Shown here piece by piece: positions 41,997-61,932 of a stretch of 64,000 nucleotides of DNA; positions within the stretch are counted from its first letter, which is position 1, and each line of letters starts with the position of its first letter. The stretch is from the NCBI RefSeq assembly GCF_041260155.1, contig NC_091935.1, forward strand, positions 4,359,001 to 4,423,000, read 5' to 3'. The notes beneath the pieces were generated by a model that saw only the letters and a list, made by a program, of their open reading frames with translations, was not told where the DNA came from and searched no databases. The translations under genes were made by a program, and so were the position numbers. The DNA comes from Ptychodera flava. Lineage: Eukaryota > Hemichordata > Enteropneusta > Ptychoderidae.

Positions 41997-42370
41997 TTAC
42001 TGTAAGAGCAGAGGTACATTTTCTTCCGCATCATTGTCGATGTTGTTATTTTTGTTTCTTGTCTTATTTGGTCGTTTTCTTGGCATAGCGTACTTCAAGT
42101 TCTTCCAGAATTTCTCCGCACTACCGCCCTCTCCCGGCCAAGATATGTACGAGATCTCCCTGAGCAGACTTTTCAGGTTGGCATCAATGTCTTCCACTGG
42201 TGAGATATCTTCAAACATGATGGGGATTATTCTAGTTTTCTTCTTCAACATTTCTTCCTGGGCTTTCAGGAATTCATAGCGACACCACTCACTCTCGACA
42301 AATCGTGGCGATAGAATGAGTATCGTACGACGGCTTGAATTGATAGCTCGCACGATATTCTCGTATATAT
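41997..42370 (-). CDS. Receptor exon 10: TIR domain, C-terminal part, and tail
   Basis: Acceptor CTTCTCGCAG|AT; stop TAA at 41999-41997. Encodes IYENIVRAINSSRRTILILS, FVESEWCRYEF (conserved Trp-Cys and Glu), and box 3 KFWKNL, then a 28-residue Lys/Asn-rich tail ending VPLLLQ. Typical Toll-like TIR length. Confidence 0.95.

Positions 42371-61932: not shown

Follow-up and report, generated by a model that had tools for sequence, protein, structure and literature searches.

The minus strand of the 64,000-nucleotide stretch of Ptychodera flava DNA that we analyzed (the window) carries a gene whose ten exons join into one predicted receptor, in which an EGF domain, four Ig domains and a transmembrane segment precede a TIR domain. 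We conclude that it is a real variant of the Ig-TIR receptors, annotated in the databases but uncharacterized, and that the predicted protein is neither a TLR nor an IL-1R. The gene copy in the window is not intact, because the two halves of one exon of its N-terminal domain match the relatives in different frames.

Rebuilt from the window, the ten exons read in a single frame of 704 residues that stays open across the nine joins and has one terminal stop; AG acceptors and GT donors flank the exons, the first of which begins at its ATG while the last ends at the stop (Table 1). The joined protein agrees with a predicted P. flava protein, P0001 (named 'isoform X2' by one source), with 100% identity over 100% of the length, and the exon count, joins and length given in a preliminary description of this DNA are therefore confirmed. 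Six of the ten exons (EGF, Ig2, Ig3, Ig4, transmembrane and first TIR) are in phase 1 at both ends, the usual pattern for shuffled extracellular modules, and Ig1 is interrupted by a phase-2 intron of 11.4 kb. A possible mini exon would lengthen the protein to 719 residues and is absent from all five database proteins considered here (P0001 to P0005). With this mini exon and the N-terminal exons included, the 12 donors fall between the 93rd and the 100th percentile of the 3624 GTs of the minus strand, as ranked with a simple weight table.

Table 1. Exons of the receptor gene and of its N-terminal domain, in the order of transcription, with positions in the window.
Feature	Position	Strand	Remarks
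N-terminal domain, exon a	63346-63247	-	Phase 0 in, 1 out; tblastn with P0003 (E 9e-6) and P0005 (E 0.006)
N-terminal domain, exon b	62506-62366	-	141 nt, phase 1-1; tblastn with P0003 (E 1e-13, 63% identity) and P0005 (E 2e-6)
N-terminal domain, exon c	61971-61806	-	166 nt, frameshift inside; tblastn with P0003, P0004 and P0005
Exon 1 of the preliminary description	61932-61806	-	3' part of exon c
EGF exon	61072-60944	-	129 nt, phase 1-1
Ig1, first part	59901-59739	-	Phase 1 in, 2 out
Ig1, second part	48341-48223	-	After the 11.4-kb intron
Ig2	47761-47441	-	Like the first Ig of Roughest/Kirrel
Ig3	47190-46870	-	Like the second Ig of Roughest/Kirrel
Candidate mini exon	45606-45562	-	45 nt, in-frame; adds 15 residues
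Ig4	45428-45168	-	
Transmembrane and juxtamembrane exon	43975-43832	-	Hydrophobic stretch; helix 482-522 in a low-confidence AlphaFold model
TIR, first part, to BB loop	43124-42969	-	
TIR, second part, and stop	42370-41997	-	

Five of the eight matches in the first protein search belong to the receptor family (P0001 included), the other three being general Ig proteins, and the same five family proteins recur among the ten matches of a profile search. Beside P0001 they comprise P0002 to P0005, of which three are from P. flava and one is from Glandiceps talaboti; all four share the order EGF, four Ig domains, transmembrane segment and TIR. Identity to the 704-residue protein is 84% for P0002, 78% for P0003 and 59% for the remaining P. 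flava protein, and 53% for that of Glandiceps, which belongs to the Spengelidae, another acorn worm family than the Ptychoderidae of P. flava (Hemichordata). The proposal that these domains lie in one protein is thus upheld, and chance assembly, already held very unlikely in the preliminary description, is excluded by an order kept in four other proteins. P0001, P0002 and P0004 lie on 45.7-Mb contigs and P0003 on a 50.6-Mb contig. When the four relatives were used as tblastn queries, only the receptor gene was matched in the window, apart from a weak match at 52313-52176 obtained with two of these queries (E 0.006 and 0.008); we considered it as a second copy and judged it to be due to chance.

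All three protein searches need shared exact words, and each of the two above scored 7995 or 7996 candidates sharing most words with the query. The search for this domain order elsewhere, which the preliminary description had recommended, recovered it in other acorn worm proteins and led to no described common family, the proteins being named 'uncharacterized' or, as for P0002, 'interleukin-18 receptor accessory protein-like'. Among the approximately 8000 candidates scored per search, the order was found in two acorn worm species only, and the suggestion of a lineage-specific receptor holds within that range; word-based searches over such a number of candidates do not allow absence to be inferred for Saccoglossus, echinoderms or amphioxus.

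In three of the relatives (P0003, P0004 and P0005), a leader and an N-terminal domain of about 160 residues precede the EGF, this region being 34-37% identical among the three; P0001 and P0002 are predicted without this domain. Its last three exons were nevertheless found by tblastn in the window, upstream of the EGF exon. For the first coding exon, the four relatives gave no tblastn match past exon a in the window at E up to 0.01, and no matching frame was seen by eye in 63341-64000. None of the best Pfam stretches listed falls within the domain. When it was compared together with the EGF to the PDB by sequence, only the EGF found a match, to Tie2, and the domain itself found nothing better than E 0.6; its AlphaFold model from three sequences (mean pLDDT 42.9) is too poor for a fold search. 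All four protein matches to the domain are P. flava proteins, and since the Glandiceps protein was missed although its domain aligns, this search misses relatives at such a distance.

The third of these exons, exon c, has a length that is not a multiple of three, though phase 1-1 is expected. Read in the entering frame, the initial 38 codons of the exon align to P0003, P0004 and P0005 with scores of 102, 78 and 103, and none of 500 shuffles was as good in any of the three comparisons; past the switch point, 43, 346 and 410 of 500 shuffles were as good as that same frame. The last 18 codons, in the frame that continues into the EGF, score 35, 29 and 31, values equaled or exceeded in 0, 1 and 0 of 500 shuffles. 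Against the same relatives, residues 1-24 of the 704-residue protein score 15, 13 and 13, which 395, 441 and 450 of 500 shuffles equaled or exceeded. As judged from these alignments, exon 1 of the gene model corresponds to the 3' end of exon c: its first 24 codons lie outside the family frame and the following 18 within it, and the net change in exon c is one base extra or two missing. Hence, two claims of the preliminary description fail at this end of the gene: the copy was called intact, whereas the frame of exon c switches within the match to three relatives, and a signal peptide was placed at 61932, which we reject because its 24 residues match none of P0003, P0004 and P0005.

The frameshift may have its source in an assembly error, an allele or decay. 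According to the accessible part of its description, the published P. flava assembly is a MARVEL assembly of PacBio reads, with haplotigs purged and with curation by Pilon (PMC11175523); if it is the source of the window, an indel left over from assembly is possible, as is a true mutation. One may read the change as a true mutation or allele, in a locus that is in decay or has a short secreted N-terminal fragment as its only product, and both the two-frame match inside exon c and its 166 nt, where phase 1-1 needs a multiple of three, agree with this. The later exons, however, are all open and well conserved (84% with P0002, 78% with P0003), with no stop in 600-odd codons, and together with the possible leftover indel they make a broken copy somewhat unlikely. 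We consider it less likely still that translation truly starts at the ATG at 61932, giving a receptor without the N-terminal domain in which a chance hydrophobic leader acts as signal peptide. Such a start is exactly that of the database protein P0001, the prediction for P0002 likewise omits the N-terminal domain, and residues 1-24 look hydrophobic on inspection. Against it, these residues find no counterpart in any of the three relatives, whereas the same nucleotides, read in the other frame, do. The start predicted for P0002 lies just before the EGF, with no leader, so that this database start is doubtful too and predicted starts in the family are unreliable. The predicted start of P0001 is an out-of-frame reading, which matters for anyone expressing that protein.

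In Pfam, the four Ig stretches and the TIR score above the curated cut-offs, and the EGF lies under its own (EGF_2, 15.0 bits against 22.1) and aligns with the EGF modules of Tie2. No LRR, FN3 or kinase domain is among the 16 Pfam families matched (up to E 10), and the NCBIfam matches are far under cut-off. The transmembrane segment is predicted by hydrophobicity and by a low-confidence AlphaFold model of the 704 residues (five sequences, mean pLDDT 49.8). Ig together with TIR by Pfam, in the same order in all five proteins, places the family with the Ig-TIR receptors.

The Ig2-Ig4 segment finds Roughest (4of8, 3.1e-21) and Kirrel1 (4ofd, 3.8e-21) in the PDB, in single stretches over Ig2-Ig3 that correspond to the first two Ig domains of these proteins. 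Roughest, Kirrel1, SYG-2 and SYG-1 make up the six best of 138 distinct PDB sequences; the SYG-1 match covers Ig2 and the start of Ig3, and that of SYG-2 extends slightly into Ig4. The corresponding Glandiceps segment again places Roughest and Kirrel1 in the top two among 389 sequences. These comparisons make a Kirrel-like identity well supported for Ig2-Ig3 and less supported for Ig4, into which only SYG-2 reaches, so that of the three Ig domains originally called kirrel/nephrin-like, two clearly keep that description. Members of the Kirrel/nephrin family have five or more Ig domains and a tail without TIR; the receptor has only three Ig domains from Ig2 on, adds the N-terminal domain, EGF and Ig1 in front, and ends in a TIR tail.

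The EGF and Ig1 together align with residues 280-405 of Tie2, the angiopoietin-1 receptor, in which an EGF is likewise followed by an Ig. This likeness (47.7 bits) is weakly indicated and serves as a lead, no more: titin is higher in total score (88), Ig1 also matches NCAM and others, and with the Glandiceps segment the match is weaker, its best Tie2 stretch being the EGF alone. Tie receptors have three EGF domains, FN3 repeats and a tyrosine kinase, whereas the receptor has one EGF and neither FN3 nor kinase among its Pfam matches. TAL effectors were also listed for EGF and Ig1 against the PDB, with many short stretches that we judged to be chance.

The TIR domain scores best with TLR1 (97 bits), followed by TLR6 (90), TLR10 (82) and TLR2 (75), and the nine best distinct PDB sequences are all TLR1, 6, 10, 15/2 and 2. 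The IL-1R family comes next, with SIGIRR at 61 bits, IL1RAP at 58 and other members at 47-53, and TLR7 (41) and TLR5 (36) lie under these. By score, then, the predicted TIR is nearest to one TLR subgroup (TLR1/6/10/2) and not to TLRs in general. The arginine and proline of the BB loop, found in this subgroup as well, are kept in all five proteins. The LRR ectodomain of these TLRs is missing from the receptor, as judged by the 16 Pfam matches.

A divergent receptor of the IL-1R family would share with ours an Ig ectodomain, one transmembrane segment and a TIR, the IL-1R TIRs are next best after those of TLR1/6/10/2, and the database name of P0002 points the same way. We nevertheless regard this assignment as improbable. 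IL-1R family members have one or three Ig domains in humans, according to the part of the review available (PMC7075850), without EGF, whereas the receptor has four Ig stretches, an EGF and the further N-terminal domain; its TIR stands apart from the IL-1R type by score only (97 bits with TLR1 against 61 with SIGIRR), its Ig2-Ig3 are nearest to Kirrel, and no IL-1 orthologue is known outside vertebrates in what could be consulted of PMC9020223. It is far less probable that two neighboring genes, one for an adhesion protein and one for a TIR protein, were fused by the preliminary description and by gene prediction. All five proteins are predictions, which leaves a little room for such a mistake, but four further predicted proteins, including one from a different acorn worm family, show these same junctions, and the phases fit throughout; we reject it on the order kept in these proteins.

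The contrast drawn in the preliminary description with Toll and IL-1R architectures is borne out by the lack of LRRs and by four Ig domains with an EGF. Its wider statement, that the TIR architecture is unlike known animal receptors, needs restriction, since TIR proteins that carry Ig or EGF are already known as a kind. In the accessible portions of the reports cited here, departures from the Toll/TLR architecture are limited to a few Toll-type TIR proteins, such as anemone proteins in which Ig replaces LRR (PMC7075850), and Ig-TIR proteins are reported from sponges (PMC6208332), sea anemones (PMC5094078), and sea urchin (by SMART definitions) and Nematostella (PMC2575513). Amphioxus is credited with 28 TIR combinations, 20 of them specific to it and TIR-Laminin among the named hybrids (PMC2575513); the reports on oyster (PMC4346834) and Aplysia (PMC9334734) distinguish IG-TIR and EGF-TIR as named classes. 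The mollusc, sponge, anemone and urchin proteins have Ig or EGF on a TIR protein in common with the receptor and are set apart from it by their descriptions, none of which, as far as these sources could be seen, includes EGF, four Ig domains and TIR. That combination in one protein is not described in the literature searched, a coverage that leaves out most subscription papers.

We propose, with reservations, that the members of this small acorn worm family are probably single-pass surface receptors in which an adhesion-type ectodomain drives TIR pairing and MyD88-type signaling. The mechanism is claimed for the family, the N-terminal domain of the present copy being broken by the frameshift. 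The ectodomain would consist of the family's own N-terminal domain, an EGF-Ig unit, a Kirrel/Roughest-like Ig pair and one further Ig, followed by the membrane helix and the TIR. The sequences show the exon structure, the domain order with its conservation and the likeness of the single parts; surface location and topology, type of ligand, pairing and pathway we infer as follows: receptors would most likely be brought together by a protein ligand, possibly displayed by another cell in the manner of Kirrel-type adhesion, upon which the TIR domains would pair and recruit MyD88-type adaptors, leading to NF-kB. Hemichordate genomes encode TLRs and a canonical TLR pathway, according to the part of PMC10210618 available. 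The family would represent a deuterostome receptor whose Toll-type TIR is under an ectodomain that is neither of LRR nor of IL-1R type, in an order kept in two acorn worm families, and if its binding resembles that of Kirrel, adhesion and innate signaling would meet in one molecule.

Divergence within the family is uneven. Between P0001 and P0002, identity reaches 91-93% in Ig2, Ig4 and TIR, against 71% in Ig1 and 77% in Ig3, and between P0001 and P0003 it is 87% in Ig3 and 67% in Ig1. Selection acting on the recognition domains, or exchange of them, could account for such unevenness by domain. More tentatively, and as a possibility that we would rate as doubtful, acorn worms may have evolved recognition receptors of their own, in which a Kirrel/Roughest-type cell-recognition module, joined to a new N-terminal domain and an EGF-Ig unit, controls a Toll-type TIR and thereby links recognition between cells directly to Toll-type immune signaling, with the N-terminal domain, Ig1 and Ig3 as the diversifying parts.

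Elsewhere in the window, two single-exon reading frames on the plus strand (6734-7792 and 26461-27591) are of the rhodopsin-type GPCR kind (Pfam 7tm_1, E 3e-25 and 8e-28). Fragments of RVT_1 reverse transcriptase occur at 14631-15428 on the plus strand and at 19140-19655, 35213-36076 and 50193-50786 on the minus strand, and a retroelement fragment with an endonuclease-type frame lies at 21204-22784 on the plus strand. The RVT_1 fragment at 50193-50786 sits within the 11.4-kb intron of the receptor gene, as do two blocks of a diverged tandem repeat of about 400 bp (53068-54530 and 54932-56324), which by eye appear to run in opposite orientations.
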